The notes under the pieces were generated by a model. The model was not told where the DNA came from. It was given only the letters and a program-made list of their open reading frames with translations, and did no database searches. A DNA stretch of 46,376 nt from a virus: IMG/VR virus record IMGVR_UViG_3300020583_000377, positions 1 through 46,376 of that record; one strand, given 5' to 3'. A program made the position numbers and the translations under genes. Of this stretch, positions 7,405 through 46,163 are shown one piece after another. The first letter of the stretch is position 1. The number at the start of each line of letters is the position of its first letter.

Positions 7405-7407
7405 GGG

Positions 7408-7781: not shown

Positions 7782-7788
7782 AAGCCTC

Positions 7789-7998: not shown

Positions 7999-8203
7999 CG
8001 ACTCCCGCCTGTCTCGGCTTGACAAATTCCGTGGCGACAAGCCGGTCGCATTCGTATCTGATCACGTCCGATTCACGGTACATCACCCGCCGGTTCAGCT
8101 TGACGTAGGGGCAACCCTTCCCCTGGCTGCGCAGATTGGCCAGATAGCTGCGGGATGTCGACCATCGCTTCGCGAGTTCATCGGCGGCGAGGAGTCGGTT
8201 CAT
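7991..8203 (-). CDS. AlpA/excisionase-like HTH protein (70 aa)
   Basis: MNRLLAADELAKRWSTSRSYLANL followed by a wing-like GCPYVKLNRRVMYRESDVIRY is the usual layout of MerR-like helix_turn_helix_17/AlpA/Xis proteins. The ATG overlaps the upstream TGA. Could be an excisionase or a small regulator. It lies directly beside the LuxR-type protein, so the pair may form one control unit. Confidence 0.7.
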   Translation of the reverse strand: MNRLLAADELAKRWSTSRSYLANLRSQGKGCPYVKLNRRVMYRESDVIRYECDRLVATEFVKPRQAGVDA

Positions 8204-8949
8204 GATCCACACTCGCAAGAGCCTATCTCGATAGCCTCTTTCCTATTTACCTTATGAAACAACCCTTCTTGCTCAATCTGCACCAGCGAGTATCTGCGAC
8301 TGAATGTTGCCCCAAATTCCACCTCCAACTGTTTTCGTTGCACAAACACCTCCGGTGCATTTTCCTTCACCGCTAGCCAATACGCTTTCCCTCCTCGAAC
8401 ACAACCAACACAATTTGCATGATCGCTCCACGAATACATCCTTGGGATAGGAACGCCCATTGTGCAAGAGCACCAATCGGCGCAGTCCTGTTTACTCACT
8501 CCATCTTCTATGATCGGAAACCTCGGAGTGAAACCCATCTTCCAGCCCATCGCAACCATGCGTTGAACCCGCTCAGATTCATTTGAACTGAACCCAAACA
8601 CCTTCACGATCTCGTCTACTCCGCTCTTCTTCAATTCGTCGATGTACCGATTTCCCGGCTCGATTTTTAGTTCATGAGAGCAAAACGCCATCATGTTATT
8701 GGGCAGCGCGTTGTGGTCATACGCGAGTTCGGTGACACTACGACCGTCACTTCTCTCTGTGAGCGGGTGGTCAAGTTTAGCGATCATCTCTCGAAGGAAA
8801 CGGTAGGTATCAGAATCCTCTTCTTTTGTATCGTGAAAAAGGAGAACCACCTCATCTTTCGGAAATGTTCGCAATGCCCAACCAGCACACCATGCTGACG
8901 TGACACCGCCAGAAAATCCGACAACAACTCTTCTTTTCATTCCGGCCAT
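8200..8949 (-). CDS. PAPS-reductase-like PP-loop protein
   Basis: 249 residues. The N-terminal VVVGFSGGVTSAW is the PP-loop (SGGxxS) that binds adenine nucleotide in PAPS reductases and related alpha-hydrolases. FHDTKEEDSDTYRF follows, as in this family, and a Cys-rich region (QDCADWCSCTMG, ANCVGCVRGGKAYW) near residues 150-195 may hold a metal or reactive thiols. Phages often carry such genes; roles proposed for relatives include sulfur metabolism and DNA phosphorothioation-type chemistry, and neither can be chosen here. An alternative start lies at 8940 (ATGA overlap with the primase gene). Confidence 0.7.
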   Translation of the reverse strand: MAGMKRRVVVGFSGGVTSAWCAGWALRTFPKDEVVLLFHDTKEEDSDTYRFLREMIAKLDHPLTERSDGRSVTELAYDHNALPNNMMAFCSHELKIEPGNRYIDELKKSGVDEIVKVFGFSSNESERVQRMVAMGWKMGFTPRFPIIEDGVSKQDCADWCSCTMGVPIPRMYSWSDHANCVGCVRGGKAYWLAVKENAPEVFVQRKQLEVEFGATFSRRYSLVQIEQEGLFHKVNRKEAIEIGSCECGS

Positions 8950-11108: not shown

Positions 11109-11332
11109 TACTTACCTTGTTCTAACTTGCTGATTTTGCGACTCAGATACCATTGGGCTTTCTTCAAGTCTTCCAATTGGTTTCCTTTGTGATCGGAACG
11201 AGCCACATACTTAACCACGTTCTCCAAATGAAATCCGAGGCCCCACGCTTCAATCGCATCGATAACTTCGATCGATCCGAACGTGTAGTGCTGAGGGTGA
11301 TTTATGTTGTCGACTGTTTGGCTCTTTTTCAC
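11108..11332 (-). CDS. DUF3310 protein, copy 1 (74 aa)
   Basis: The pattern NHPQHYTFGSIEVIDAIEAWGL ... NVVKYVARSDHKGN ... DLKKAQWYLSRKI is characteristic of DUF3310, a small phage family sometimes annotated as a nucleotide kinase, with no settled biochemistry. The GTG start overlaps the upstream stop (GTGA); a longer frame into the upstream gene is less likely. A second DUF3310 gene lies at 35941-36171. Confidence 0.75.
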   Translation of the reverse strand: MKKSQTVDNINHPQHYTFGSIEVIDAIEAWGLGFHLENVVKYVARSDHKGNQLEDLKKAQWYLSRKISKLEQGK

Positions 11333-11490
11333 GCGAACGGCCCTTTCTTCGGGTCCGGCTTTATCTTCTCCCCACACTTGCTGCACCGGGCTTCGCGTTC
11401 TTCGAAATCGAACAGAATGCGCTCGCCCTCGTCGATGTTACGGGTGCAGGAGACGCATTCGGATTTGTATTTGGCAGTTATCCAGTTCAC
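11329..11490 (-). CDS. Zinc-ribbon protein (53 aa)
   Basis: Two CxxC pairs (CVSCTRNIDEGERILFDF and ARCSKCGEKIKP) make a classic zinc-ribbon layout. The GTG in a GTGA overlap, with AGAGAGG upstream, is preferred to a TTG further out. Possible nucleic-acid or protein-binding accessory of the replication block. Confidence 0.6.
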   Translation of the reverse strand: MNWITAKYKSECVSCTRNIDEGERILFDFEEREARCSKCGEKIKPDPKKGPFA

Positions 11491-11759
11491 AAAGACCTCT
11501 CTTTTCTCCAACCACCGCGGGGTCCGCGGACTTGGATCTGCTGAGAGTGTGGCCGCTCAACGTACCCCCTCCCCGTTGGAGTGTAAGAACAAACTGAATC
11601 CTCGGCACGAGAGGCATCTTCGAAGGTGACAAAATACTGCCAGTGTTTAGTCCCGCCGCGATACCGGAATTCGACACGAAAAGGCGTATCTTTACCTCGT
11701 ACTGATTCAGCCTGTTCACGCCTCTTTAGGAGTTCATGCTCGATTTTATGAAAGCTCAT
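11487..11759 (-). CDS. Hypothetical protein (90 aa)
   Basis: A helical N-terminus (IEHELLKRREQAESVRG) then beta-rich RVEFRYRGGTKHWQYFVTFEDASRAED and a basic, Gly-rich tail. No family recognised. Overlaps the zinc-ribbon gene by GTGA. Confidence 0.5.
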   Translation of the reverse strand: MSFHKIEHELLKRREQAESVRGKDTPFRVEFRYRGGTKHWQYFVTFEDASRAEDSVCSYTPTGRGYVERPHSQQIQVRGPRGGWRKERSL

Positions 11760-11763
11760 TCGG

Positions 11764-12054
11764 TCACCATTTCCACTTAGGATTCCAATTAACTTCGTTT
11801 TGGAAGTCGCTGATTTCTTTTCTGATCTTTACCGGAATCTCAGTGCCTTTTTTCCTCAGTCTAGCCACTATTTCCATATCGCCTTCAACGTCACCAAATC
11901 CAGTAAAACGAGCATTGAAGACGCGCTCGTGGCAAGTAGAGCAAAATGTGCCGCGGCCATGGGTGAAACTGCCTGTGTGATTTTCGGCGCGTTCTAGGAA
12001 CCCACAGAGATGATTGGTTACTGTTCTTGATAGAAGTTTGAATTCCTCAACCAT
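11764..12054 (-). CDS. Hypothetical protein with Cys/His motif (96 aa)
   Basis: Start at the ATG with AAGGAG upstream, overlapping the preceding gene's end by 8 bases; a longer reading would lie inside that gene. Contains GTFCSTCHERVFNARF and ends in a Trp/Lys-rich tail (NWNPKWKW). A short metal-binding domain is possible. Function unknown. Confidence 0.5.
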   Translation of the reverse strand: MVEEFKLLSRTVTNHLCGFLERAENHTGSFTHGRGTFCSTCHERVFNARFTGFGDVEGDMEIVARLRKKGTEIPVKIRKEISDFQNEVNWNPKWKW

Positions 12055-12235
12055 TCTGGTGCTCCTTATTGAATCGCGCGTCAGCATGTTTCTCAAGTAA
12101 CGCAAGAACTTGCTTCATTGAAATCATTTTGTCTTCGAAAGCGATCAATCCGTAAGAAGGAAGTGTTTTCACATCGGACCACAGTTTGTAGTCTCGCTCG
12201 TCCCAACCATTTGTGCGATTCTTAATTTCCAGCAT
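12047..12235 (-). CDS. Small hypothetical protein (62 aa)
   Basis: A good AAGGAGTGA site precedes the ATG by about 7 bases. Mixed helix/strand with a C-terminal ALLEKHADARFNKEHQNG. It sits between the polymerase and downstream small genes. No family recognised. Confidence 0.5.
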   Translation of the reverse strand: MLEIKNRTNGWDERDYKLWSDVKTLPSYGLIAFEDKMISMKQVLALLEKHADARFNKEHQNG

Positions 12236-12250
12236 GTTGATTCACTCCTT

Positions 12251-14311
12251 TTACTTGCGATATCTCCTTGCGTGAAATCCTTCCGCAGCCAGCGGCAGTC
12301 CTTTCGCCCACAGCGGCGTCGTTGACATAATTTTTTCCATCTTCCCCAAAGCCCATTCAGCGCGTTCCTGCCGAACTTCTGCGACCACTTCGTCATGCAC
12401 ATGTAGGACTATCTCTATTCCTTGAGATTCAATTGCCCACATCGCATCGGCCAACAGGTCACGTGCGATCGCCTGCGTCATGTTCTCGGCCAGCGATCCG
12501 CCGTAGGTTGAGACCCGTTGCCAACGGCCCTTGCTGTTAGGGTCCGGAAGTGTCTTTGCTTTCTTTTTCTGAGTCTGATCCACGACCGTCATGAAGGTCA
12601 ATTGTTCTTTTTCCTCTCCCCACGGGGTCATGACCATTTGCAGTTCGGGGTAGGGATAACACAGAGCACGGCCACTGGGCAGCAGAGCCCACAGGAAAGA
12701 GCCGACCTTGCGGAACTTGACCTGACGGCCGCCGGCACCGGCATAATGAACGCCGCCGGTCTTCATGGCGCAGGTTACCGCTTCTTCCAGTTCATACCAG
12801 TACTGAACGATGCGTTGGTTAGCCGCACGCCATGCTTTTACAATCTCTAAAGCCTCTTCGTCGGGAACCGTCACGTTGTAGTTTTTGGCCATGGACTGAA
12901 AGGCTCCGATGGAACCTCCAAATCCGCAGGCCAAAATTATTACCTTGCCCCGCTGACGCTGGTCCTTCGTCACCTCGTCCAAAGGCACATGGTAGATACC
13001 CGCCGCAGCGTGCTCGTAGATGAGCCCGTGTGTCCTGAATACCTCCAGCACACTCTCCTGGCCAGCAAGCCATGCTAGGGCTCGCGCTTCAACAGCAGAG
13101 AAGTCACATGCGACTAATTCATTTCCTTCGCCTGCAATTAGCATCCCGCGAAGACAGTCCGAAATTGCAGCCATCGCGGGTCCGTAAAACAGATCAAGTC
13201 TTTCCTTGTCGCCCAGCATCGAGAACATGGCCTCGATGTCTTCGAAAGTGATTCCCGGTCTTCCCCGGAAAAAGTTCTGAGGTTGTACTCCTCTTCCACC
13301 CCACCGGCCCGTCGACGCGGCGTGGTACTGATGCATGTTCCTTAACCGGCCATCAACAGACCCTTTCTCGCGCATGGTGACCAGTTTCGCCGTACTGCTC
13401 TTGGCGGCCTCCTGACGCAGCTCCAGAGCACGGCGAACAGCGGGAGGCATCGGGGTCACCCAAGGAGGAAGATCATCACCCTCTTCGTAAGGGCCGTCTT
13501 CATCCCCTGCGTTCGCCAATGCGTCGATCACATCCGCCTTGGCCAGGCCGTCCATCTGAACGCCCTGCGCAGCGATCCACTTGCCGAGCACCTGCACTTC
13601 GTTGCAGGATCCGACCACGCCGCCTGTGACTTTGAGCATCTCAGCATTGAGCCGCTTCTGTTCGGACTGGATAATTGCGATCGCCTTATCGGCGCTAGCG
13701 AGGTCGCACATCACACCACGATTATTGATCTTGTAATCGAGTTCCCACAGAGCGCATTCGGACGGGGACAATTCCATCAACCGCTCGAGGCAGGAAAGCT
13801 CCGTCCTCACATCCTGCGCGTTGTATTCGTAGAGTCTGAGAAACTTATCGAGGCTCTCGACGTCACGGCGCCACATCGTCCCGTCTTTCTTAGGCTTGCT
13901 CAGTTGCAGCATGATCCTGTGGCCCTCAGCGTCTTTTCTTTGGTCCACACCGAGCGCCGGCGCGGCGTCCTCCAGAGCGCCCGGCAGGGCCATCGCGTAG
14001 GCCCGCACCATGGAGCAGCGGACTTGAGCGATCGGGAGAGGCTTCCAACCGTATTTGGGAACGCAGCAGAAGTTCCAGATTGCGAGTTCAAATGCTGCAT
14101 TCCAAGCGGTGATGATTCCGCCCTGGTCGATATGGGCTTTCAGATCCTTGGGGAAGGGCTCGCCCTCGACCCAAGTCTTGATGTGCTCAGGATCGGGGCC
14201 GTAGGACATGCAGTGAACGCCCGTGGACTCGTCGGTCGCGTAGTTGTGCAAGCCTGATTTTTTCAGGTCTATTTGAGAAAAAGTTTCGAAATCCAAGCCC
14301 CAGGAGGTCAT
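12251..14311 (-). CDS. Family A DNA polymerase with 3'-5' exonuclease domain
   Basis: 686 residues. Exonuclease: LDFETFS (D-x-E, residues 7-13), TAWNAAFELAIW and LYEYNAQDVRTE hold the expected acids. Polymerase: motif A VACDFSAVEARALAWLAG, motif B RGKVIILACGFGGSIGAF and motif C VLHVHDEVVAEV are intact. Motif B has Phe-Gly where bacterial Pol I has Tyr-Gly; in family A enzymes this O-helix position influences dideoxynucleotide discrimination. No 5' nuclease domain, as usual for phage enzymes. It is the replicative polymerase of this element, with primase-helicase downstream and SSB upstream. Confidence 0.92.
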   Translation of the reverse strand: MTSWGLDFETFSQIDLKKSGLHNYATDESTGVHCMSYGPDPEHIKTWVEGEPFPKDLKAHIDQGGIITAWNAAFELAIWNFCCVPKYGWKPLPIAQVRCSMVRAYAMALPGALEDAAPALGVDQRKDAEGHRIMLQLSKPKKDGTMWRRDVESLDKFLRLYEYNAQDVRTELSCLERLMELSPSECALWELDYKINNRGVMCDLASADKAIAIIQSEQKRLNAEMLKVTGGVVGSCNEVQVLGKWIAAQGVQMDGLAKADVIDALANAGDEDGPYEEGDDLPPWVTPMPPAVRRALELRQEAAKSSTAKLVTMREKGSVDGRLRNMHQYHAASTGRWGGRGVQPQNFFRGRPGITFEDIEAMFSMLGDKERLDLFYGPAMAAISDCLRGMLIAGEGNELVACDFSAVEARALAWLAGQESVLEVFRTHGLIYEHAAAGIYHVPLDEVTKDQRQRGKVIILACGFGGSIGAFQSMAKNYNVTVPDEEALEIVKAWRAANQRIVQYWYELEEAVTCAMKTGGVHYAGAGGRQVKFRKVGSFLWALLPSGRALCYPYPELQMVMTPWGEEKEQLTFMTVVDQTQKKKAKTLPDPNSKGRWQRVSTYGGSLAENMTQAIARDLLADAMWAIESQGIEIVLHVHDEVVAEVRQERAEWALGKMEKIMSTTPLWAKGLPLAAEGFHARRYRK

Positions 14312-14327
14312 GATCGTCTTTCAAGTG

Positions 14328-14705
14328 CTACTTTGTTTCGCGTCCGGTTTTCTTGCGTAAATCGTCTCTCGCAGCACTTGGACTGTCACCCCATCCGGAC
14401 TCAGATTCTTGTAAATTAGCAAAATCCGGAAACACAGCACACCACATATCGCCATCCTTAAAAACTCGCGAATGTGGGCCTCCATGCCCGATGCAAGCCA
14501 GCGCTGGAACATAGCCGTCGTACCGGCAGTCATCTCGCTGCATTCTGTTGGTACAATAATTCATGTGACGCGGAGACGGCGGAGGTTCACCGTAAGCTTC
14601 CTTGTCGCAAAAACCACATGGAGCACCTCCCATCCACATGGGCACAGAGCAAGCCCCTATACCGTTTTCGTTCAGCGTCCTGTGCTGCTCGCTAATAGCA
14701 CTCAT
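14328..14705 (-). CDS. Cys-rich hypothetical protein (125 aa)
   Basis: Start chosen at an ATG with GGAAGGG upstream, located after the terminator-like hairpin at 14735-14763; a longer frame reading into the SSB gene is not protein-like. Cysteines occur in GAPCGFCDKEAYGEPP, MNYCTNR and DDCRYDG, and HGGPHSR is also present. The C-terminus is charged. Possibly metal-binding; no family recognised. Confidence 0.5.
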   Translation of the reverse strand: MSAISEQHRTLNENGIGACSVPMWMGGAPCGFCDKEAYGEPPPSPRHMNYCTNRMQRDDCRYDGYVPALACIGHGGPHSRVFKDGDMWCAVFPDFANLQESESGWGDSPSAARDDLRKKTGRETK

Positions 14706-14734
14706 CGATTTACCCTTCCTGCATAAAGCAACAC

Positions 14735-14763
14735 AAAAAAGTGGGGAGGCTCTGCACCTCCCC
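14735..14763 (-). terminator. Rho-independent terminator after the SSB gene
   Basis: On the minus strand a GGGGAGG stem, a 7-base loop and CCTCCCC are followed by two bases and six T residues. It lies 16 bases after the end of the SSB gene and before the next gene, so it could reduce transcription of the polymerase-primase part relative to the SSB. Confidence 0.75.
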
Positions 14764-14778
14764 GTACCCAACCACAAA

Positions 14779-15351
14779 TTATCCGAAGATCGACGTTGCG
14801 GTCTTCCCGTTCGCTGCCCCAGCGGGGACGTCGACGGGCTCGAAGGCCTTGGAGGCGGGAATGCGGCCGTTGCCGAGGGGATCGTCGTCACGGAGTTTCT
14901 GCACGTTCTGCAGGCCGAAGCTGACGCCCTTGTTGCCGGCAGTATCGTAGGCGAAGGCACGCACCTGGCAGCGGTACCATGCGCCGGAGTACACGTCTGC
15001 ATCGTCGATGATGTCCTGCAGCTTGCTGTCGACGATGCCGGGACGACGGTCCTCGTTCGCGGAGAAGGACATGATCACCCAGTCGTCTCCGATGCCGACG
15101 ATGGGGGCTTCAAGTTCTTCGTTGACGCGAAACGGCGAGCGCAGGGTCTTGGGAATTTTGTCTCCCCATTTTTCGGTCGCGGCGGCGTGCGCTTCCTTCT
15201 TGAGCGCGCTCAGATCCGCCTTGGGCGGGAACGCGGCACGAATCGAGAACTTCGGTTTGCTGGTGGAACCATCCGCGTTTTTCATTGCGGTGGCACGGAA
15301 GACGCTGATGAAAGCGGCGCGGAACTCAGGCGTGATTAAGTTGTCTGGCAT
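14779..15351 (-). CDS. Single-stranded DNA-binding protein, DUF2815-like (T7 gp2.5-type)
   Basis: 190 residues. The pattern KFSIRAAFPPKADLSALKK ..., the central KWGDKI ... SPFRVNEE, IMSFSANEDRRPGIVD, and DVYSGAWYRCQVRAFAYD with NKGVSFGLQNVQKL are hallmarks of DUF2815 phage ssDNA-binding proteins. It would coat unwound template near the polymerase. AAAGGAG precedes the ATG. A strong terminator follows, compatible with high separate expression. Confidence 0.82.
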   Translation of the reverse strand: MPDNLITPEFRAAFISVFRATAMKNADGSTSKPKFSIRAAFPPKADLSALKKEAHAAATEKWGDKIPKTLRSPFRVNEELEAPIVGIGDDWVIMSFSANEDRRPGIVDSKLQDIIDDADVYSGAWYRCQVRAFAYDTAGNKGVSFGLQNVQKLRDDDPLGNGRIPASKAFEPVDVPAGAANGKTATSIFG

Positions 15352-15424
15352 TTGTTGCTCCTTTGTGATTGTTGAGTATCGGTTGTGGTTGTCGGTTGGC
15401 TTAGGAGCGCGGTGCTCTGTGGCC

Positions 15425-15745
15425 TTACGAATCTGTCAAACGTAGAGAGACGACTTCGATCTCCACGGCCTTGCGTTCAGGAACGTCTTTGATTTCAGTC
15501 CAATGTTCCTCGCCCGTATCCATAGAGTCCCAAGAAGTTGGATACGAAACTTTGTTGACGTGTACCCCGCGACGCCATTGGATGAGAGCATTTTGCGCTG
15601 ACTTCTGCGATGGAAAAAGTCGCACCGGTTTATCCTGAGTTGGCTCTTCCGGTTCATCCATCGAATAGCCGCGCCGCTGATTGGGACGGCGAAGAAAGAA
15701 CTTTTCAGTTCCCTTCACGCGGAGCCCGAAGTACACCATGTTCAT
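15425..15745 (-). CDS. Hypothetical protein (106 aa)
   Basis: Coupled to the upstream DUF2800 nuclease gene by ATGA. N-terminal MVYFGLRVKGTEKFFLRR suggests a short beta hairpin, followed by an acidic linker and SAQNALIQWRRGVH. No family recognised; coupling suggests a role with the nuclease or ssDNA-binding protein. Confidence 0.5.
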   Translation of the reverse strand: MNMVYFGLRVKGTEKFFLRRPNQRRGYSMDEPEEPTQDKPVRLFPSQKSAQNALIQWRRGVHVNKVSYPTSWDSMDTGEEHWTEIKDVPERKAVEIEVVSLRLTDS

Positions 15746-28017: not shown

Positions 28018-28145
28018 ACAATGAAAGGCAGGTGATGCCCAATGCACACAACAAACGATCGCAATAAACTGATTCCGCGCTCGTAGGCACCGTATCGAGC
28101 AGGCGGGATCGAATACGGTGTGCATCGAGCAGTTTCTTCGATTGA
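28003..28145. repeat. 15-bp direct repeat AGTTTCTTCGATTGA flanking a gene-free gap
   Basis: Copies at 28003-28017 (including the stop of the preceding gene) and 28131-28145. Between them an 8-bp inverted repeat CACCGTAT/ATACGGTG occurs, and only very short frames. It could mark a past insertion, deletion or duplication. Confidence 0.6.
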
Positions 28146-28204
28146 TCAAAAACGCTCACCCATCTTTCACAAATTTAATGTACGATTCTCAGTGGAGTCC
28201 AAAC

Positions 28205-28732
28205 ATGGCTCATGATCGTTACCTTCTCGAACTGCTCGACACCTGCCTTAAAACCATGGAGCGCCAGATCCGGCGCATCGAGCAGGCCGACCGCGAGGAT
28301 CTCGACACCCTCCGCCTGATTCAGCGCGAACTGCATGTCCTTGCACAAGAGCTTCAGCCTCCCCCGCCGCCCTCAACCCTCGCAACCAGCATTTCATTCC
28401 AGGAGACGTCTATGAACCCGACTCAAGCCGGTCAGACCCAGGTCTTCACCGGAACTCTCTCGCCCGCCGGCTCCGTCCTCGCGCCGGATGCCAAAGCCAC
28501 CATCACCTCGAACGATCCAGCCGTCTCGCCGACCCTGGATTCGACTCAACTGATCGTCAGCGTCACTTATCCCAGCGGATGGGTCGAGAGCACGACCACC
28601 CCTCTGGCTTTCTCGTACGTGTCCGCTAGCATCAGCACCGGCCAGACGTTGTCAGCCGCCATTACTCCGAGTGCGCCGCCTCCGCCTCCTCCGGTTCTGG
28701 CAACAAGCATCGGATTCCAACAGACTCAATGA
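28205..28732 (+). CDS. Coiled-coil plus Ig-like domain protein (175 aa)
   Basis: Start chosen at the ATG following GTGGAG. Residues 5-55 are a coiled coil (LLDTCLKTMERQIRRIEQADREDLDTL), then Pro-rich linker, then about 85 residues of Ig-like beta-sandwich (TQAGQTQVFTGTL ... IVSVTYPSGWVESTTTPLAFSYV), then another Pro run. ATSISFQET and ATSIGFQQT repeat at both ends of the Ig part. This arrangement suits a virion decoration or surface-binding protein. A strong terminator follows. Confidence 0.6.
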   Translation: MAHDRYLLELLDTCLKTMERQIRRIEQADREDLDTLRLIQRELHVLAQELQPPPPPSTLATSISFQETSMNPTQAGQTQVFTGTLSPAGSVLAPDAKATITSNDPAVSPTLDSTQLIVSVTYPSGWVESTTTPLAFSYVSASISTGQTLSAAITPSAPPPPPPVLATSIGFQQTQ

Positions 28733-31691: not shown

Positions 31692-32033
31692 ATGAGCCCA
31701 CGTCCCCGGCTTCCGAAAACGCAGTGGGCAGACGATTCGATCCGAGTCGAGGTCAAGGCTGCGGGTCTTGTCGACGAGCCTGCCAACCAGGAAGTCTTCA
31801 ACGCTTGTCTTGCCGAGATGGGATCTGTTCGGATGAGAGTTATGCTCGGATGTTACGGACCAGGAAGCGAAGAGCGCCCCAAGCCTCGCTATAGCTGGCT
31901 TTTGGGAGAGTCAGCAACGATCTTGTGTCGTGACACAGATGTGGCTAATTGGTTTCGTGAAGAACTTTTGAAGTGGCTGAAGTCTCTCGACGGAATAAAA
32001 CTAGAGCGTGTGGAAGATGAGGAAGTCAAGTGA
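31692..32033 (+). CDS. Hypothetical protein (113 aa)
   Basis: Alpha/beta layout (SIRVEVKAAGLVDEPANQEVFNACLAEMG; ATILCRDTDVANWFREELLKWLKSL). Acidic end (EDEEVK). Overlaps the methyltransferase gene by GTGA. No family recognised. Confidence 0.5.
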   Translation: MSPRPRLPKTQWADDSIRVEVKAAGLVDEPANQEVFNACLAEMGSVRMRVMLGCYGPGSEERPKPRYSWLLGESATILCRDTDVANWFREELLKWLKSLDGIKLERVEDEEVK

Positions 32034-33040
32034 TCGCTTATATTCTTTTTGGCGCCGGCACGATCGGTCGTCTGATTGCACGGCAATTGATTGCGAAGGG
32101 AACTTCGCCAGTCTGTTTTGCCGACAACGACCAGAGTAAGTGGGGAAAGGAAGTCGAGGGAATTCTTGTGCTCAGTCCCGAAGATGCGCTGCGAGAGTAC
32201 CCTGATGCGAAGTGGGTCGCTACAATCCACCGAACTCCTTTCCGTGGCGAGATTCTCGAACAGTTGGAAGCAATGGAAGTGAAACAGGTTTCGCTCTACG
32301 ATTTTCTTCCTGCACGGTGCGATTTGCCGCCCGACGATGCCGATGAGACTGTTCGGGGCCTGTTGACAGACGGAGAATCATTGGCCGAGTGGAAAGATCA
32401 ATTGGCTTTCCGGCGCGACTCCACGACTCATATTCAGCGGCCTCCCCGCAACATCGCCAACGTCTACTTTGAGAACTTCTTTACTCACGACGATAATGAA
32501 GTGTTCATCGACTGCGGAGCAGCTACCGGAGACACTATCGATGAATTTCTTAATCGTTGGGATAAATTCAGAATCATAATCGGGTACGAGCCCGATAAGG
32601 CGAACTATGCCACCCTTGTCACTGCCGTTCACCGTTTCAACGACAGCCGTATCCTGCCTGTCTTTGGTGCTATCGGCGACCACCGTACTGAAATGTCCTT
32701 TATCGCAACCGGCGATCAAACCGCGCACCTTGGGGGTGATGGAGAGAAGGTTCCGGTATTTCCTCTTGACTCAGCGCTGGGAGGAATTATTCCAACTTTC
32801 ATCAAAATGGACATCGAAGGCGCGGAACTGGAAGGCCTCTGGGGCGCACGCGAGACGATCAAGAAATACTCTCCGGTGCTCGCTATCTGTGCGTATCATC
32901 TTGGGTCGCATCTTTGGGAAGTGCCGCTCTTACTACACGCTCTCAATCCGATGTACAAGATTTACTTGCGGCGGTATCTTGAGGCGACGTGGGAGTTAGT
33001 CTGGTATGCAGTACCGCCTGACCGGGTGGTGTCCCGATGA
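32030..33040 (+). CDS. FkbM-family methyltransferase with N-terminal Rossmann-like domain
   Basis: 336 residues from GTG. Residues 1-90 start YILFGAGTIGRLIARQLI and hold a second strand (PVCFADNDQSKWG), a nucleotide-binding fold of the kind placed before FkbM domains. The methyltransferase part has EVFIDCGAATGDTIDEFL (SAM motif I), GYEPDKANY and KMDIEGAELEGLWGA, the FkbM signature (DIEG). FkbM enzymes methylate glycans and other small-molecule hydroxyls. The first gene of a coupled glycosyl-modification cassette. Confidence 0.82.
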   Translation: MIAYILFGAGTIGRLIARQLIAKGTSPVCFADNDQSKWGKEVEGILVLSPEDALREYPDAKWVATIHRTPFRGEILEQLEAMEVKQVSLYDFLPARCDLPPDDADETVRGLLTDGESLAEWKDQLAFRRDSTTHIQRPPRNIANVYFENFFTHDDNEVFIDCGAATGDTIDEFLNRWDKFRIIIGYEPDKANYATLVTAVHRFNDSRILPVFGAIGDHRTEMSFIATGDQTAHLGGDGEKVPVFPLDSALGGIIPTFIKMDIEGAELEGLWGARETIKKYSPVLAICAYHLGSHLWEVPLLLHALNPMYKIYLRRYLEATWELVWYAVPPDRVVSR

Positions 33041-33726
33041 ACGATCTTCTTGTCATTGCGGCAGCGAGTTCCGACTCCGGAGGTACTTTGCCTCAGTACC
33101 GCGCTCAGCTTGCCGCAGCGGGGATTCCTTTCCATGTCGTGCCTTTAACCGGGCCTCCGGATGCAACGATTGCCGCGACTCTTTTTTATTTTCGCCGCTT
33201 GGCCGAACAGTTTTCTTCCTACAGGCGTTTGATTCTTACCGATGCTTTCGATGTGAGTTTTTTCGGAACCGCTGCGGATGTGCCCGATATATGCGCCAAG
33301 GTTCCTCTCGATCATGTTCTTTGGGCTGCGGAAAAGAACTGCTTCACGGACCCGCATATGGCGACACCGATCCATGCGCGTCACCCCGAGCGTTCCCCCT
33401 GGCTTTATGCCAATGGCGGTATGTTGGCGGCAACACCGCAGGTTCTCTACGATTGGACTCTGGCGGTCGAGCGCTACCCTCTTTATGCCGATTTTTTCAT
33501 TAACCAGGGTTTTTACAACATCTTGCTTGCCGCTGGATGGGATCAGATGTGCGTGGACTGGAGAACCGATCTGTTTTTCTGTCTTCACAGCGGTTATTCG
33601 GAATTGGATTTCGAGCGCGGGAAGCCGGTGAACACAAAGTGGGGGACCAGGCCTCTGTTCGCTCACGCCAACGGCGCGTGGCCCACCGATGAGATGTGGG
33701 CGAAGTATCATAGGAGCCTTCAGTGA
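33037..33726 (+). CDS. PLOD/procollagen-galactosyltransferase-like glycosyltransferase
   Basis: 229 residues. N-terminal Rossmann-like strand (LLVIAAASSD), metal-binding segment LILTDAFDVSFFG (a D-x-D context), WLYANGGMLAATPQVLYDW and C-terminal MCVDWRTDLFFCLH with WGTRPLFAHANG follow the GT-A layout of PLOD-type sugar transferases. Such enzymes normally move Glc or Gal to hydroxyl groups; donor and acceptor here are unknown. Coupled by ATGA to the methyltransferase gene. Confidence 0.7.
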   Translation: MNDLLVIAAASSDSGGTLPQYRAQLAAAGIPFHVVPLTGPPDATIAATLFYFRRLAEQFSSYRRLILTDAFDVSFFGTAADVPDICAKVPLDHVLWAAEKNCFTDPHMATPIHARHPERSPWLYANGGMLAATPQVLYDWTLAVERYPLYADFFINQGFYNILLAAGWDQMCVDWRTDLFFCLHSGYSELDFERGKPVNTKWGTRPLFAHANGAWPTDEMWAKYHRSLQ

Positions 33727-34511
33727 GCGAACAGGTTCGCATTTGCGCGATATCGAAAAACGAGGGCCGGTATCTCCACGAGTGGTGTCTCTTTCATCAG
33801 ATTGTCGGTGTCGATCACATTACGATTTATGACAACGGTTCGACGGACGACACGCGTGAAGTTCTTCGTTCTTTTGTCGATTCCGGGTTTGTGGATCTGA
33901 TCGATTGGCCGATGCCGTCTCCGAGCCAGTTCGCTGCATATCGGCATTTCATCGAAGGGCACCGCGGGCCGTATTGGATTGCTTTCATCGATATCGATGA
34001 GTTTCTTTTCTCTCCGGTTTTTCCCACTATCTCCGAGGCTTTGTCTGCGATTCCCCATCGCAGCAGCGCGCTTGGGGTTAATTGGGCGTGTTTCGGCAAT
34101 TCAGGCCGTCGGGCATATTCTCCTGAGCCCGTGATTGAGCGATTTTCATGGCGCCTCGCTTCAAGCAATCCGGTTAATACGCACATCAAGTCTTTGATCT
34201 GGATGGACCAGGATGTGTGTGTCGGTAACGATCCGCATTTCTTCGCGGTCGAGCACGGAACGTTTACCGAAAACGGCGATCCTATTCATGGGCCTTTGTC
34301 TGGCTCGCATTCTTCCAGTTTGCTCCGCCTGAACCACTACGTCACCAAATCGGATGAGGAGCTGGCTGGAAAGATTGCGCGGGGAAGAGCGGATCTGGCG
34401 CAGCCAAGGCAGTTGTCGGAATTCGATGGTTATCATGCGCGAGAGGTAGACGACCGGGAGATTCAGCGGTTCTTGCCGGAACTGAAGAGGAGGCTCGAAT
34501 GCCTCGTCTGA
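33723..34511 (+). CDS. GT92/GT2-like glycosyltransferase
   Basis: 262 residues from GTG. ISKNEGRYLHEWCLFHQIVGVDHITIYDNGSTDDTREVL is the hallmark N-terminus of GT92 and related glycosyltransferase family 2-like enzymes; WIAFIDIDEFLF carries the D-x-D site. A C-terminal SSLLRLNHYVTKSDEEL segment matches the family. Transfers a sugar from a nucleotide donor; acceptor not visible. Overlaps both neighbours. Confidence 0.82.
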   Translation: MSEQVRICAISKNEGRYLHEWCLFHQIVGVDHITIYDNGSTDDTREVLRSFVDSGFVDLIDWPMPSPSQFAAYRHFIEGHRGPYWIAFIDIDEFLFSPVFPTISEALSAIPHRSSALGVNWACFGNSGRRAYSPEPVIERFSWRLASSNPVNTHIKSLIWMDQDVCVGNDPHFFAVEHGTFTENGDPIHGPLSGSHSSSLLRLNHYVTKSDEELAGKIARGRADLAQPRQLSEFDGYHAREVDDREIQRFLPELKRRLECLV

Positions 34512-35107
34512 GTTTCATCGTAGTTGCTTACGAAAATCCTTCGACTCTGCGGACCTGTCTTTCATCTCTACTCGACCAGACGATGCGGGATTTTGAAATC
34601 ATCGTTGTCGATAATTCGATCGGCAGTACATGGATCGATTTGAATAAGGATCTTTGCCGGATGTCGGATCGAATTCGCTACGAGTGGACGGCAGACAGGA
34701 CTGATGTTTCTCATCTGAGGCTGCGGCATTCTAACTGTCTCTACACTGCGACTGAGATCGGAGCGGAACTAGCGATCGGAGATTTTTTATGTTTTCCTTC
34801 GCAGGACTCTTACTATGTTCCTGTCTTTGCCGAAAGAATGATCTCCGCCGCTGGTCGTCACCATTGCGATCTTGTTTACTGTGGGCTGGTCCATGGGCTC
34901 CCGGATCGCCATTACGTTCCGATCGAGCCTTCCTGTCGCGTGGGCCAGGCGGACAAAGGTTCGTTCATTTTGCGGCGATCTTTATTCACTGGATTTCCGG
35001 ACAAGCGCCTCGATTATGAGAAGGCAGACGGATTGCTGATCGAGCGCCTGGCGCAGGCCGGTGTGACGCGGCGCAGGTTGGATGAATATTTGATGTTTCA
35101 CAGTTGA
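34499..35107 (+). CDS. GT2-family glycosyltransferase (short)
   Basis: 202 residues. SFIVVAYENPSTLRTCLSSLLDQTMRDFEIIVVDNS is the GT2 start (donor-binding). AIGDFLCFPSQDSYYVP holds the acid pair region, with S-Q-D where D-x-D is usual. The fold is close to full length but ends early relative to many GT2 enzymes. Overlaps the preceding gene by 13 bases. Confidence 0.75.
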   Translation: MPRLSFIVVAYENPSTLRTCLSSLLDQTMRDFEIIVVDNSIGSTWIDLNKDLCRMSDRIRYEWTADRTDVSHLRLRHSNCLYTATEIGAELAIGDFLCFPSQDSYYVPVFAERMISAAGRHHCDLVYCGLVHGLPDRHYVPIEPSCRVGQADKGSFILRRSLFTGFPDKRLDYEKADGLLIERLAQAGVTRRRLDEYLMFHS

Positions 35108-35126
35108 TAGGAAAGGGAACAGTCGA

Positions 35127-35948
35127 ATGAGTCGCATTTTGATTGGGATTTTAACGGCGCATCATCCCTCCCGTTGGTGGTATCGCGTAGCTGCGCGGCA
35201 AAATTATCTTAAAGGTTCCGATCTGGATCATTTGTTTGTCTTCGGGCGGCCTCCTGTTTCCGATTGGCCAGTCGAGCAGCAGGAGGATGAACTTTGGGTG
35301 GATTGCGACGATCGCAAGGAGTACATGGTTTACAAGAATCAAGCGCTGTTTCGTTACGCGCTCGATCATGGGTATACGCATGTGTTCAGGTGCTGCGACG
35401 ATACGGTTGTTTTTCCTGACCGTATCGCCAACGCCGGTCTGGAAAGTTATGATGTAGCCGGCACAGTGCCCTGCAAATTTTCTCTTGGCGGCACGTTTAA
35501 GACCTGGTTCCAGTATCTGAATTATTTTCACGGCGGAACGGGAATTTGGCTTTCGCGTAAAGCGATGGAAATGCTCGTAGCGGATGTGTGGGACGAGCAT
35601 CGTTTGGATTCATGGCCGGAGAAATTGGACCTGGGCTTTGGCTTGCAGATTAGTAAGCCGAAAAAATATTGGGACGACCACTGGATTTCGGAGGTGCTGC
35701 AAGGCAATTTGCCTTACGACCACCCCAACCGCAAGCAGCCAATGACCGCCTATGCCTTGAATGGATTGTCGGTGTTCGAGGATGAGATGCTGTTTGTCAA
35801 CAGCGAGCCTATGCGGGCTCTTACTCTTCACGATCCAGGCGTCCACAAGATCAATTCACGCGAGATGGACGAAGTAATGGAGCAGATCAAACAGCGTAAT
35901 ATCGCGATGGCTGAAGCTGCACGAGCACAGGAGGCCCCCATTGCCTGA
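35127..35948 (+). CDS. Fringe/GT31-like glycosyltransferase
   Basis: 273 residues. HVFRCCDDTVVF provides the acid triplet (C-C-D-D-T), and FHGGTGIWLSRKAMEML plus YWDDHWISEVLQ are the late motifs of GT31/fringe-like galactosyl- or N-acetylglucosaminyltransferases. N-terminal ILIGILTAHHPSRWWYRVAARQNYL resembles the same fold's first strand. Ends by overlapping the DUF3310 gene. GGAAAGGGAA lies upstream of the ATG. Confidence 0.72.
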   Translation: MSRILIGILTAHHPSRWWYRVAARQNYLKGSDLDHLFVFGRPPVSDWPVEQQEDELWVDCDDRKEYMVYKNQALFRYALDHGYTHVFRCCDDTVVFPDRIANAGLESYDVAGTVPCKFSLGGTFKTWFQYLNYFHGGTGIWLSRKAMEMLVADVWDEHRLDSWPEKLDLGFGLQISKPKKYWDDHWISEVLQGNLPYDHPNRKQPMTAYALNGLSVFEDEMLFVNSEPMRALTLHDPGVHKINSREMDEVMEQIKQRNIAMAEAARAQEAPIA

Positions 35949-36171
35949 AGCCGTCAATCATCCTGCTCATTACGGCGGTGACGTTCCACACGAGACGTAC
36001 AAGTGTCTTCGCGCATGGGGACTGGAGCAGGATGCGTTGATATGGAATGCGGTGAAGTATCTCTCACGAGCAGGCAAGAAAGGCAGCAGTACTAAGATCG
36101 AAGACTTACAAAAATCGGTTTGGTACATCAATAACCGAATCGAACAATTGAAAGAGGAACGGTCAGAATGA
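35941..36171 (+). CDS. DUF3310 protein, copy 2 (76 aa)
   Basis: NHPAHYGGDVPHETYKCLRAWGL ... NAVKYLSRAGKKGSSTKIEDLQKSVWYINNRI fits the DUF3310 pattern, as does the gene at 11108-11332. TTG start inside a GGAGG-containing 19-bp sequence that recurs before 36926. Next to ThyX, which is the usual setting for nucleotide-related functions. Biochemistry not settled. Confidence 0.8.
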   Translation: MPEAVNHPAHYGGDVPHETYKCLRAWGLEQDALIWNAVKYLSRAGKKGSSTKIEDLQKSVWYINNRIEQLKEERSE

Positions 36172-36914
36172 AAATTGTCAAGCCTTATGCAAAGATTATG
36201 GAACCGGATTTGTTAGCCGGTGCCTTGAAACGTATCGAGTATTCTGCTCGCATCAGCCACGGCTCGGAAGATGCACAGACTGAAGATTCAGCGGAACGAT
36301 TCATTCGTGCGGTCGTTCTCCAACACGGCGATTGGTCTGTCGTCGAGCATGTGTCAGCTTCGGTTGAGTTCCTTGTGGATCGCGGGATTACGCATGAGAT
36401 TGTCAGGCATCGTATCGCGAGCTACACGCAATCGAGCACGAGATTCATCAATTACGCAAAGAAGATGCCGCCAACTTTCATTTATCCGAAGCCGGAGGTG
36501 GAATGCGTCAAATGCGCAGCCGGTAACGAGCCTTCTTTGGATGATCGTGAGATTGTTTGTCATGTCAAAATAGGTGAGACAAGCCTTTACAACATGGACT
36601 GCGCTTATGATCAAGATTGGTTACTGGCGATCGAGGAGTCTGAGCGGCGTTATCGGAGGCTATTAGAGAAAGGCTGGCGTCCCCAAGAAGCCAGATCAGT
36701 CTTCCCCAACGCTCTTAGCAGTAAGATCATGGTCACGCTCAACCTGCGAACTTGGCGTCACTTTTTCTTAATGAGGACCAGCAAAGAAGCTCATCCTCAG
36801 ATGCGACAGGTGACGATTCCTCTGCTTGCTGAGTTCCAGCGCCTCGTGCCGGTTCTCTACGAAGACATTGTGCCGGAGTCGCGGCAGGTCGATAACATCG
36901 CTAAAGGTCGATAG
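36168..36914 (+). CDS. thyX: FAD-dependent thymidylate synthase
   Basis: 248 residues. The ThyX motif RHRxxSxxxxSxR appears as RHRIASYTQSSTR. Flanking WSVVEHVSASVEFLVDRG and WRPQEARSVFPNALSSKIMVTLNLRTWRHFF plus KEAHPQMRQV confirm the family. It makes dTMP from dUMP using FAD. Between the ThyX motif and the C-terminal half lies a segment with VECVKCAAG ... IVCHVK ... NMDC, giving four Cys that most ThyX proteins lack. GAGGAACGG precedes the ATG. Confidence 0.92.
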   Translation: MKIVKPYAKIMEPDLLAGALKRIEYSARISHGSEDAQTEDSAERFIRAVVLQHGDWSVVEHVSASVEFLVDRGITHEIVRHRIASYTQSSTRFINYAKKMPPTFIYPKPEVECVKCAAGNEPSLDDREIVCHVKIGETSLYNMDCAYDQDWLLAIEESERRYRRLLEKGWRPQEARSVFPNALSSKIMVTLNLRTWRHFFLMRTSKEAHPQMRQVTIPLLAEFQRLVPVLYEDIVPESRQVDNIAKGR

Positions 36915-36925
36915 GGAGGTCCCCA

Positions 36926-37441
36926 TTGCCTGATTTCAATCTTTTCCAAAGAGTCGGTGATTTCTGTGAATTGCGCAAGGAATACCGTGCAACCGCTTTG
37001 AAGAACTTGCGCAAACGAGAAGGACTTCCATCTCCTGTGGATGAGAACGGCAACGAACTAGAAACCCGTTTCGACGATCAGGGTAACGCGCACTACTACA
37101 ACGCATCCGGCGAGAAACAGGAGCATGTCCTCTTTGCCGGTGCGGGCAAGGACGGCAAGCCCGGTTCCTTTGCCGTTGGTACGCGCAAGCAGGAGCCACG
37201 CGAACTGGCGGATGCCTCCTGGCATTCAGAATCCGAGTTCCGGATTCTCGACGTCGCGGAAGACGGACGGCGTATCGAGAGTGAATTGGTTGATTTGCAT
37301 CGGGACGTCGCAACCTACGAGAGGGCAGAGCGAGTTTCTCACGGCGACGCAGGCGAGCAGGTGCCAGAGTTGCATTTGGCGGGAACCTCAGACGAAGAGA
37401 TCGACGAGACGCTGCAGAAGTTTTTGAAACGAGGGTTGTGA
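36926..37441 (+). CDS. Hydrophilic hypothetical protein (171 aa)
   Basis: TTG start with GGGAGG upstream, in a 19-bp sequence almost identical to that before the second DUF3310 gene. Highly charged with ENGNELETRFDDQGNAHYYNASGEKQ; helical N- and C-termini. No family recognised. Confidence 0.5.
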   Translation: MPDFNLFQRVGDFCELRKEYRATALKNLRKREGLPSPVDENGNELETRFDDQGNAHYYNASGEKQEHVLFAGAGKDGKPGSFAVGTRKQEPRELADASWHSESEFRILDVAEDGRRIESELVDLHRDVATYERAERVSHGDAGEQVPELHLAGTSDEEIDETLQKFLKRGL

Positions 37442-42774: not shown

Positions 42775-43269
42775 ATGACCCCACAAAGAGCATATCGCAT
42801 TAAAGAGGCAGTCTGTTACTTTACAGACAAAAACAACAAGCGTGCTGTGATGCGCGATGTCGTATTGGGAGAGGTCATCACTCCGCGAATCGAGCATATT
42901 TTCTCTAAAGGTCAGTGCCACGCTCTTGCGGTCGCGTTGCATGAGATTCTTGGGTGGGAAGTGATGGGTGCGTGTGATTTTTGGGGCGGCGGCTCTCGCC
43001 ACACGTACCATTACGTTATTCAGTGCCCAGACCACCGAGGCGATGCGGACATCCACGGAATTCGTTGTTTGGACCATGGTTTGCGAAAGGCGAATGTAGG
43101 CGCGATTCTCGGTGGAAGGGTTAGAGGATTCTTGCCGCCAGCAATGAGCTTTGCCAGGCACTACGCCAAGATTATCGCTCCTGAGATTCAGAAGCAGTGG
43201 GATGCTTTGAAAGCCGGGAAGTCTAAACCGCGCTGGACGTTGTGCTCGGAAGGATACGACGATAAATAG
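42775..43269 (+). CDS. Papain-like-fold hypothetical protein (164 aa)
   Basis: ATG with AAGGAG upstream. GQCHALAVALHEILGW puts a Cys in a helix start, HTYHYVIQCPDHRGDADIHG supplies a His and an Asp: a Cys-His-Asp order found in transglutaminase/papain-like small phage proteins. It could be a protease, amidase or inactive relative. It overlaps the terminase start, so a role in packaging or capsid maturation is conceivable but unproved. Confidence 0.5.
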   Translation: MTPQRAYRIKEAVCYFTDKNNKRAVMRDVVLGEVITPRIEHIFSKGQCHALAVALHEILGWEVMGACDFWGGGSRHTYHYVIQCPDHRGDADIHGIRCLDHGLRKANVGAILGGRVRGFLPPAMSFARHYAKIIAPEIQKQWDALKAGKSKPRWTLCSEGYDDK

Positions 43270-46163
43270 TGCCTCTCGATCTTCAACACGTTGAAAAATT
43301 CTTCACGCGACTGCATATCCGCGATAGAGACGAGGGAACGTTTGTCCCTTTCACACTTCGTCCTCAGCAGCAGGAGATATTTCACTTAGCTAAAGAGCAT
43401 CTTGCGCGGCGTCGTAGACTGTTTATTATCTTCCTCAAAGCTCGTCGTCTTGGAATTTCCACCATCGCAACCGGGCTCGGTCAAGCGCACTGCATTGCAC
43501 ATCCAGGGTCCATGGCGCGCTGCATCGCACAGAATGCCAAAGTAGCGTCTGCTAATTTCGAGATGGCCGGTAGTTTTTTCAAGGACTGCCGCGACCTATA
43601 TCCTGGCGCAGCTAAGCCCACTAAGTCTCTACTTGTATGGCCACATTCTGACGGACCTGATTCTACTTTCGAGCATCATACCGCAGCTACGGTTCACGGT
43701 CAGCGCGGACTAACTTCGTCTTTCATTCATTTAACCGAAGCAGCGTTTTATCCCTACGAAGGGGTGTTCACGAGTTTGCTCAACACGCTGAGCATGGATA
43801 AAAATAACGCCTGCTTAGTTGAAACAACAGCAAATGGCCAAGAAGGCCCTGGCGAAGCGTACTACCAGTATTGGGAAGCGGCGATGTCAGGAGAAAACGA
43901 GTTTCTTCCTATTTTTCTGCCGTGGTGGGACGATCCGGCGTATGTGCTGCCGGAAGAACTTGCTCAAGACGCTCCTCGCGATGAGTACGAGAAGCGTTTA
44001 ATGAATGATATCAGACACTGGAAGACGGGGAAGAAAGTTAAGTTAGGCAAAGATCGCATCGCGTGGTTTCGCGAAACACTCTCCACACGTTGCGAAGGAA
44101 TTTTGGAAAAATTTCGCGCTGAGTACCCATCTGACCCGCAGGAAGCTTTTATCGCCACAGGCAACCCTGCGTTCACGATTGAAGAGATTCAATTTGCTGA
44201 AAATGCGGTAGTGAAGATCCCTCCGTTCCGCGGCCGATGCGTTCTCTCAAGTGATCTCAAGCACGGTGAACTTCAGAAGGGAACGGACGGGCCGTTGGTA
44301 GTCTACGAGACTCCACAAAAAGGTCACCATTATTTCGCGGGCGTGGACTCCGCACGAGGTGAAGAAAACACGATGGCCCCCGGCGATTATGCGGCTATTG
44401 TGGTGTGGAACGGAGAGACCGGAGATTTGGCGGCACGGTATATGTCTCGCGTGTCTCCGGAAGAGCTTGCTCCTGTAGCTGCAGCTCTCGGCTATTATTT
44501 CAATGGAGCCATGCTCAATGTTGAGCTGAACAATATCGGCTACGTCACGATGCGTGAACTTCGTGACCGGCTTTACTATCCGAACCAATATATCTGGAAG
44601 GGCCGCGATGACCGCGTGGATCGCTCGAAGCAAGGTGTGGCCTACGGATTTGAGACTTCCGATCGCTATCGGAAGATGATGTTCTCTATGTTTCGTAATT
44701 CTCTTTATCGCAAAGAGGTCGTGCCGAAGGATCGTGTATTCGTGGATCAGATGAAGAAAGCGAAGATGGAAATGGCTTGGCGCTGGAATGTTGCAGTTGG
44801 CCACGATGATGTTCTTATGTGTCTCAATCCAAAAGAGTTAGTAGAAACTCAAGATGGATTAAAACACATTTGTGATATTCGGCCAAGTGAATTCGTGCGG
44901 ACCCACACAGGTGAACTCCATCAAGTTCAAGGTGTCATGTCGCGTGAAGTCAATGAGGAAATGATTCACGTTGGTGTGATGGGAAATCCCGAGCCCACAA
45001 GTACGACAAGTAACCACCCTTACTATGTGTGTCGGTACGAATGGAACAAACGCAACGGGGAACTAACTAGAACCAAAAAACAGGTCGAGATGCCGTCATG
45101 GAAGGCGGCGTCTGATGTACGCCTTGGGGATTCAGTGTTGTTTCCAAAGAGAAAGAATCTTCCTCTTGCCAGTCTTCCTCTCGACCAGTTATGGATTTTG
45201 GGTTGGTACTTAGCTGAGGGTTCACGTTGCCGCAGGATTAAAAAAAGTCAAATGGCATTTTCGATTTCATTTGGATTGAACTCTTCGGAACGTAGTGTGG
45301 CGGAGCGGATATGCGAAATTTTGATTAAGTACGATCCTCCTTCCAAATCTAATCAGAAGTCTCCGCGCATAGAAGACGTAAAAGGAAAAAATGCAATTCG
45401 TGTGAATTATAGTTCACGGTATTGGCATGCTTTTTTTACTAAATTGGCTGGCGGTTTGCAACAAGTTCGTAAAATCGATTCCTCAGTCTACAACTGTTCT
45501 GGGCTTTTGCCTCTCGTAGCTGCTTTCATGTCCGGCGATGGGTCTCAGCCAAAAGGGCAGCGTCATGCAGTTCACGGGAGTAGCACATCGCGTGTACTCA
45601 TTCACCAGATCAGACAGATCATGATAGATGAGGGTATTTGGTCTACAATCCACAAACCGAAAAATCAGGAAATTTGGGCATTGTGTGCGAGCGCTGAGTT
45701 TATTGAACGCTTTGTAGGTATTTCGAAATTTCATTCTATTGAGCATGAGAGAAAGTTTCACAAACGGCACGTCGTCGAGACAGATGAGGGATTTTGGGCA
45801 CCAATCAAATCGCTCGCATTGATACCGTACTCTGGTCCGGTGTTGAATCTTGATATCGAGGGAGATCACACCTACCAGGCGCAGGGAGTAGCTGTTCACA
45901 ACTCGGGCTTCCTCGGATGGATCGCAAAAGAGCAAAATCATCAGTTCGCATGTCAGCGCAAGTCAAGCAAAAACGTCATGATGTCCAAAGAAGAACTCGA
46001 AAACGCAGGCTTCGCACCTGCCCGCGGTCAGATGCCTGAGTGGCTGAAAGCACCGGAGGTGACTGGAGCCGGGATGCTGTTGACCAGCGGCAACGATCAC
46101 CTTAAGAAGCTCGAAATTTATGCGAAGAAAAAAGCGCGTATGAATCGCTTAGAGTGGGTCTAG
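43269..46163 (+). CDS. Terminase large subunit interrupted by an intein
   Basis: 964 residues as read; about 603 after removal of a 361-residue intein (residues 518-878). ATPase: a Walker A-like KARRLGIST at residues 57-65 and SFIHLTEAAF at 151-160. Nuclease: FAGVDSARGE (Asp360), NVELNNIGY (Glu419) and GHDDVLM (Asp513-514), after which the intein sits. It translocates and cuts concatemeric phage DNA into proheads. No small-terminase gene is recognisable upstream. GTG start in an overlap with the previous gene. Portal and head genes are expected to the right. Confidence 0.9.
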   Translation: MPLDLQHVEKFFTRLHIRDRDEGTFVPFTLRPQQQEIFHLAKEHLARRRRLFIIFLKARRLGISTIATGLGQAHCIAHPGSMARCIAQNAKVASANFEMAGSFFKDCRDLYPGAAKPTKSLLVWPHSDGPDSTFEHHTAATVHGQRGLTSSFIHLTEAAFYPYEGVFTSLLNTLSMDKNNACLVETTANGQEGPGEAYYQYWEAAMSGENEFLPIFLPWWDDPAYVLPEELAQDAPRDEYEKRLMNDIRHWKTGKKVKLGKDRIAWFRETLSTRCEGILEKFRAEYPSDPQEAFIATGNPAFTIEEIQFAENAVVKIPPFRGRCVLSSDLKHGELQKGTDGPLVVYETPQKGHHYFAGVDSARGEENTMAPGDYAAIVVWNGETGDLAARYMSRVSPEELAPVAAALGYYFNGAMLNVELNNIGYVTMRELRDRLYYPNQYIWKGRDDRVDRSKQGVAYGFETSDRYRKMMFSMFRNSLYRKEVVPKDRVFVDQMKKAKMEMAWRWNVAVGHDDVLMCLNPKELVETQDGLKHICDIRPSEFVRTHTGELHQVQGVMSREVNEEMIHVGVMGNPEPTSTTSNHPYYVCRYEWNKRNGELTRTKKQVEMPSWKAASDVRLGDSVLFPKRKNLPLASLPLDQLWILGWYLAEGSRCRRIKKSQMAFSISFGLNSSERSVAERICEILIKYDPPSKSNQKSPRIEDVKGKNAIRVNYSSRYWHAFFTKLAGGLQQVRKIDSSVYNCSGLLPLVAAFMSGDGSQPKGQRHAVHGSSTSRVLIHQIRQIMIDEGIWSTIHKPKNQEIWALCASAEFIERFVGISKFHSIEHERKFHKRHVVETDEGFWAPIKSLALIPYSGPVLNLDIEGDHTYQAQGVAVHNSGFLGWIAKEQNHQFACQRKSSKNVMMSKEELENAGFAPARGQMPEWLKAPEVTGAGMLLTSGNDHLKKLEIYAKKKARMNRLEWV
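44820..45902 (+). mobile_element. LAGLIDADG intein in the terminase (361 aa)
   Basis: Begins with Cys after GHDDVLM and ends with a His-Asn pair before Ser (+1). Block B TSTTSNHPYYV has the T-x-x-H motif; the end (SGPVLNLDIEGDHTYQAQGVAVHN) matches blocks F/G. Two LAGLIDADG-type motifs, WILGWYLAEG (642-651) and LVAAFMSGDG (749-758), indicate a homing endonuclease. The region is richer in A and T than the extein. All catalytic residues are present, so splicing should work. Confidence 0.9.

Follow-up and report, generated by a model that had tools for sequence, protein, structure and literature searches.

Evidence for an exchangeable glycosylation cassette centred on a single GT31-type enzyme at a fixed genome slot of a phage family

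In the virus record IMGVR_UViG_3300020583_000377, taken in its entirety as the window (i.e., the whole stretch of 46,376 bases analysed here), five consecutive open reading frames (ORFs) of the + strand at positions 32030-35948 encode an FkbM-family methyltransferase and four glycosyltransferases (GTs). These five genes are best explained as a single allele of a glycosylation cassette that is exchanged between phages and lodged in a fixed slot of a + strand operon, ahead of the large terminase gene. Comparison with related records shows that the number of sugar genes in this slot, which is delimited by two conserved anchor genes, ranges from none through one to many, and that a single GT31 enzyme is the common element of the cassettes. 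Because from 0 to about 9 exchangeable sugar genes surround one shared GT31 at one fixed spot of the genome, the comparison suggests that this phage family builds changeable sugar coats, probably on its own particles.

Related records were gathered by searching with the fifth gene of the row, i.e., the GT31 gene, together with its conserved neighbours, four of the records being of about 75 kb (74.6-77.9 kb); gene families within the slot were assigned from profile scans where scanned and elsewhere read from the sequence by eye. The left edge of the slot is a conserved gene of 113 amino acids (aa) without Pfam or PHROG match (31692-32033, + strand; left anchor), which is found at 48-84% identity in L002, L003, L007, L009, L014, L017 and L022 to L026, and the right edge is a conserved gene of 171 aa (36926-37441, + strand; right anchor), 29-85% identical across all family members examined. 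Between these edges, the slot is empty in L017, where the two anchors overlap directly, and holds the GT31 alone in L024; it contains an FkbM gene followed by the GT31 in L004, the contig of which starts within the slot, and a methyltransferase, a GT2 and the GT31 in L007, L009 and L022. Longer alleles comprise (i) a GT2, a transposase-like gene, a PAPS-reductase-like gene, a GT2/B12-radical-SAM-like fusion and the GT31 in L025, (ii) a GT92-like gene, a NodB-like deacetylase, two more ORFs, a LicD-like gene, a methyltransferase, an HNH-like gene and the GT31 in L014, and (iii) nine genes in L003 and L026, including a WecB-type epimerase, short-chain dehydrogenases (SDRs), an FdtA-like cupin, a methyltransferase and transferases. 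In L023, the gene order is left anchor, right anchor, GT31 and GT2. By profile search, exactly one GT31 copy is present in 11 of 12 records and none in the record of L017; Pfam GT2 matches are confined to the slot in these 12 records, none being found elsewhere in the 51.8-kb L024 record, and no tail-fibre-like ORF occurs between the anchors in any allele read.

The sequence-only reading of the window had proposed, as a check, a search for synteny of the same five genes in other phages. The complete set recurs in one record only, namely the near-sister L002, and what is conserved is instead the slot and its GT31. In the window only, a DUF3310 gene and a ThyX gene (RHRx7S-type motif) stand at 35941-36914, between the GT31 and the right anchor. 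That these two genes belong to the pathway, as a possible link to modified bases, was rejected since they are absent from L002, which has the same cassette; ThyX (36168-36914), missing from all 11 relatives searched including this sister, is thus regarded as a neighbour outside the cassette. Of note, the fusion in L025 (L025:3729-6122) is a protein of 797 aa joining a GT2 to a B12-binding/radical-SAM-like region, read by eye except for the profile-matched GT2. In L003, the set of SDR, cupin and WecB had suggested a UDP-FucNAc-like route (CapF/FnlB plus a 2-epimerase), but this naming was dropped and the sugar left unnamed because a PDB search of the SDR gave mainly RmlD-like reductases.

All five genes of the window's cassette lie on the + strand. 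The first (32030-33040; 336 aa) matches PF05050 (1.1e-10; 42.4 bits for a cut-off of 22.7), TIGR01444 (46.3 bits for a cut-off of 37.7) and PDB 2py6 (3e-21), its N-terminus corresponding to a PglD/NeuD-like Rossmann domain (NeuD, 7.5e-7 at residues 4-87; PglD_N, 0.03); as a member of this family, it is a predicted, most likely sugar-directed O-methyltransferase. The second (33037-33726; 229 aa) is tentatively assigned as a PLOD-like GT of the GT-A fold, with a match to PF25342 (5e-4; 19.8 bits) lying under the Pfam cut-off of 27, no match in the PDB search and a segment, LTDAFDV, resembling by eye a metal-binding DxD motif. The third (33723-34511; 262 aa) is a Glyco_tranf_2_4/GT92-like GT with a DIDEF motif, matching PF13704 (1.8e-15; 57.7 bits for a cut-off of 27.5) as well as PF01697, i.e., GT92 (9.2e-15; 55.4 bits for a cut-off of 23), and has a homologue of 42% identity in the corresponding slot of L014. 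The fourth (34499-35107; 202 aa) is a GT2, matching PF00535 (2.2e-12; 47.6 bits for a cut-off of 23.3) and SpsA in the PDB (1h7l; 7e-7), with homologues of 36-38% identity in the slots of L022, L023 and L025. Where these three relatives read FPSDDSYY, this GT2 reads FPSQDSYY, an Asp-to-Gln change at a probable metal-binding site common to the window and L002.

The fifth gene (35127-35948; 273 aa) carries a CCDDT motif and, when searched by its own sequence alone, gave no meaningful Pfam or PDB match. A profile built from 40 IMG/VR relatives matches GT31 enzymes, namely C1GalT1 (1.3e-18; best), B3GNT2 (5.6e-12) and further B3GalT6, chondroitin synthase and Fringe, and 24 of the 40 relatives match the Pfam family Galactosyl_T (PF01762). 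An AlphaFold2 (AF2) model reached a pLDDT of 92 and a pTM of 0.90, and its top PDB match in Foldseek is B3GNT2 (7.5e-9; probability of 1.0); an earlier model from 4 sequences (pLDDT 51) had been discarded and rebuilt with the 40 sequences. On account of the profile, the Galactosyl_T matches and this confident model, the predicted product is a GT31-type GT-A enzyme. Profile and structure searches, the check proposed by the sequence-only reading, hence bear out its family calls for FkbM, GT92-like and GT2, all over the Pfam cut-offs, and for GT31, by profile and model, but leave the PLOD-like call below its cut-off; the four different GT-A families it had counted are four families of one fold, one of them weakly assigned. 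The stop-start overlaps it had singled out are indeed present (4, 4 and 13 bases, then a gap of 19 bases ahead of the GT31) but not distinctive: the gene upstream overlaps the FkbM gene by 4 bases as well, and the same style recurs in neighbouring genes (starts at 35941, 36168, 37438 and 37860). Being a general habit across the operon, such coupling was rejected as evidence for a cassette.

The exchange of cassettes is apparent from patterns of divergence. Between the window and L002, synonymous divergence (dS) is 0.19-0.40 in the five cassette genes for 1.02 and 1.23 in the anchors, so that the exchange of the cassette is more recent than the divergence of its surroundings. The row described by the sequence-only reading is kept whole in L002, with a ratio of non-synonymous to synonymous divergence (dN/dS) of 0.03-0.15 throughout (0.026 for the PLOD-like gene), which indicates that the cassette has been kept functional. 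L007 and L009 share 68% identity at the start of the left anchor but are identical from its late part onward; the breakpoints of recombination are located within or next to this anchor, identity jumping inside it or just past it. By terminase, the closest relative of the window is G007 (L022), with 98% identity, yet the cassette of G007 differs and the two GT31s are 55% identical. Across records, the correlation of GT31 identity with terminase identity is 0.20 and with that of other genes 0.42-0.53, for 0.64-0.92 among the non-GT31 genes themselves. Taken together, these sequence comparisons show that recombination near the anchors transfers cassettes among phages that diverge elsewhere, and that the cassettes are under purifying selection. 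That the slot would be a mere hotspot for stray cargo, with unrelated passengers forming no single pathway, accords with the strong variation of its contents, the empty allele of L017 and the HNH-like and transposase-like genes of some slots; set against the low dN/dS, the single GT31 of 11 of the 12 records and the predominance of sugar chemistry in every allele holding more than the GT31, it appears very improbable.

The sequence-only reading had favoured a multi-step glycan-type pathway over a single glucosylation step, and the multi-gene cassettes of relatives, including nucleotide-sugar biosynthesis enzymes, agree with it. None of the five proteins has a strongly hydrophobic segment (maximal Kyte-Doolittle mean over 19 residues of 1.22) and all look soluble; the products would be cytosolic enzymes using nucleotide sugars, host-made for the window's phage. 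The WecB-type epimerase, SDRs and FdtA-like cupin of L003 and L026 would make the donors partly phage-made in these phages, and show that some alleles come with sugar-donor chemistry of their own. The GT31 would catalyse the one step that all alleles have in common, its acceptor being independent of the remaining cassette; since this enzyme is shared and stands alone in L024, that acceptor should exist without the rest. The remaining transferases may extend or branch the chain and the FkbM enzyme may O-methylate a sugar, perhaps as a cap.

What is so built could be placed on the host surface, the cassette altering surface glycans such as O-antigen or capsule units made on the cytoplasmic side and thereby blocking superinfection or later adsorption. 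WecB-, SDR-, FdtA-, LicD- and FkbM-type genes (LicD by eye) are typical of bacterial surface-polysaccharide loci, and similar islands of pelagimyophages are interpreted that way by their authors (PMC7029224). Transmembrane-like segments are nevertheless missing from the cassette proteins of the window and from nearly all those of relatives, a GT2 of L022 being borderline, and none of the slots contains a gene resembling GtrA/flippase, a polymerase or a ligase; moreover, a lytic lifestyle is suggested by the records, which have replication genes and in which no integrase was noticed, and the slot runs together with packaging genes, all of which makes an action on the host surface rather unlikely. 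For seroconversion of the gtr type in particular, the five proteins offer no transmembrane-like segment and a best GtrB-like PHROG match of 0.064.

An even chance is given to the reading in which the cassette encodes a soluble pathway of the late operon, its product being a short, variable glycan that is most probably attached to virion proteins during late expression; a cassette swap would then alter the surface glycan of the particle. The slot sits in the operon leading to the terminase. Among distant relatives of the GT31, those of L030 are found between portal, protease, major capsid and tail genes, and those of L040 come directly after the major capsid gene. Glycosylation of capsid and tail by phage transferases is established in mycobacteriophages, as reported in PMC12363180 and PMC12619734. 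Weighing on the other side, no acceptor was found and the gene position is circumstantial; in L041 and L046, other distant GT31 relatives are part of extended sugar clusters, where no capsid gene is visible; the PLOD-like assignment of 33037-33726 is weak; and the records are mostly fragments, outside of which further sugar genes may lie. Within the window, a conserved gene at 28118-28732 has a C-terminal half rich in Ser, Thr and Pro with repeated ATSI.FQ segments; its product resembles an Ig-like decoration protein and is a possible, putative candidate as glycan acceptor. In L030, an unrelated phage, the region 7373-15616 (L030:7373-15616) has several GT31-like copies among protease, major capsid and connector genes, including a protein of 733 aa in which one GT-like and two GT31 units are fused.

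Modified bases of the phage DNA, glycosylated against restriction, were the remaining acceptor to consider. Phages with GTs acting on DNA have been described (T4; Pyle 2024, cited in PMC12619734), ThyX and DUF3310 adjoin the cassette in the window, and a C5 DNA methyltransferase is found beside the terminase in G010. Yet none of the 12 records searched, which include four of about 75 kb, matches the ThyA family, i.e., the dCMP/dUMP hydroxymethylase type (PF00303), in a search where 9 control genomes gave a signal, though the records may be incomplete; TET/JBP (PF12851) is matched in 0 of 12, in a search without positive control. With ThyX absent from the sister L002 carrying the same cassette, and four transferases plus nucleotide-sugar synthesis exceeding the needs of known simple cases, glycosylation of DNA seems improbable. 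Both DNA bases and gtr-type seroconversion are thus disfavoured relative to virion proteins. Going further, and only tentatively, the virion glycan may be a strain-variable multi-sugar structure, where the GT31 would put the first sugar on a conserved particle protein and swappable cassettes would build different outer structures, phage-made activated sugars and methyl caps included; whole-cassette recombination might then, by analogy, be much like serotype switching in bacteria.

Hypervariable GT islands in phages are already known (PMC7029224), and the slot has their traits, being non-syntenic, transferase-rich and at a fixed place between conserved genes. The host recognition cluster of pelagimyophages is likewise a non-syntenic GT-rich island at a fixed site in otherwise colinear phages, also with deoxy-sugar enzymes and radical SAM cassettes, but averages about 45 kb, includes tail fibres, has GT8 as commonest family and belongs to T4-like SAR11 phages (PMC7029224); the slot described here spans 0-8 kb, has no tail fibre gene, is centred on one GT31, has an empty allele and belongs to an unrelated lineage. 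As far as checked, what is new is the lineage, the compactness of the slot with its recombination edges, its empty allele and the conservation of a single GT31. For the mycobacteriophages Che8, Corndog and Myrna (Freeman 2023, described in PMC12363180 and PMC12619734), the resemblance to the present case lies in phage transferases that act without membrane partners; capsid and tail targets, hypothesised here, are shown experimentally there, and these two papers name one or two transferases for each phage and describe no swap slot. The GT31 itself shares with B3GNT2, B3GalT5/6, C1GalT1 and Fringe the profile match, the predicted fold and the acidic DDT motif but differs in lacking a membrane anchor, with about 12-16% identity in structure alignments. 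DNA GTs of viruses (T4 type; Pyle 2024, cited in PMC12619734) are also phage-encoded, possibly several per phage; unlike for these, no hydroxymethylated-base pathway was found in the records here. The morons of Tunturi 5, a phage of Acidobacteriota (PMC11924767), include galactosyl transferases and a PAPS reductase, as does the window, but these are single genes, with no swap slot described, and no sequence match to the window's GT31 was found for this phage in the phage collection.

Should the acceptor be the virion, these phages would own switchable surface glycotypes, which would matter for adsorption, for receptor mimicry and for shielding. For a stepwise dissection of the pathway, the alleles found in nature form a ready set, from the empty slot through the GT31 by itself and the GT31 plus a methyltransferase and a GT2 to the full nucleotide-sugar cassette; a concrete hypothesis of function is also provided for the GT31-like "galactosyltransferases" of many uncultured phages.

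Around the cassette, replication genes (primase, DNA polymerase, exonuclease and helicase) occupy the - strand, and the + strand gene row runs from about 27 kb to the end of the record, leading to the large terminase gene (43269-46163). Since this row reaches the terminase at the record's end, the record probably ends short of the capsid genes; it also ends ahead of the place where G010 has its C5 DNA methyltransferase (L058:16572-18602), located after the terminase on the opposite strand, as is a similar ORF in L004. In the phage record collection, megablast gave no similar sequence for the right part of the window and the terminase has at most about 27% identity among the matches listed, from which the lineage appears to be without cultured member. 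No relative of the right anchor was found in the species-genome collection, and no PLOD-like relative in the Acidobacteriota genomes scanned, a scan in which no control gave a signal. A scan of genomes with the GT31 led to one contig of a Bryobacterales metagenome-assembled genome (MAG) with a related gene; in the phylum of the Bryobacterales, 2 of 199 genomes (the same MAG and one other) gave a strong match and 3 more a marginal one. Together with the description of Acidobacteriota phages having galactosyl transferases and PAPS reductase (PMC11924767), this relative makes an Acidobacteriota host a guess only. In the window, a gene of the PAPS-reductase family (8200-8949; phrog_424, 6e-44) adjoins the primase, and a PAPS-reductase-like gene is also found within the slot of L025.

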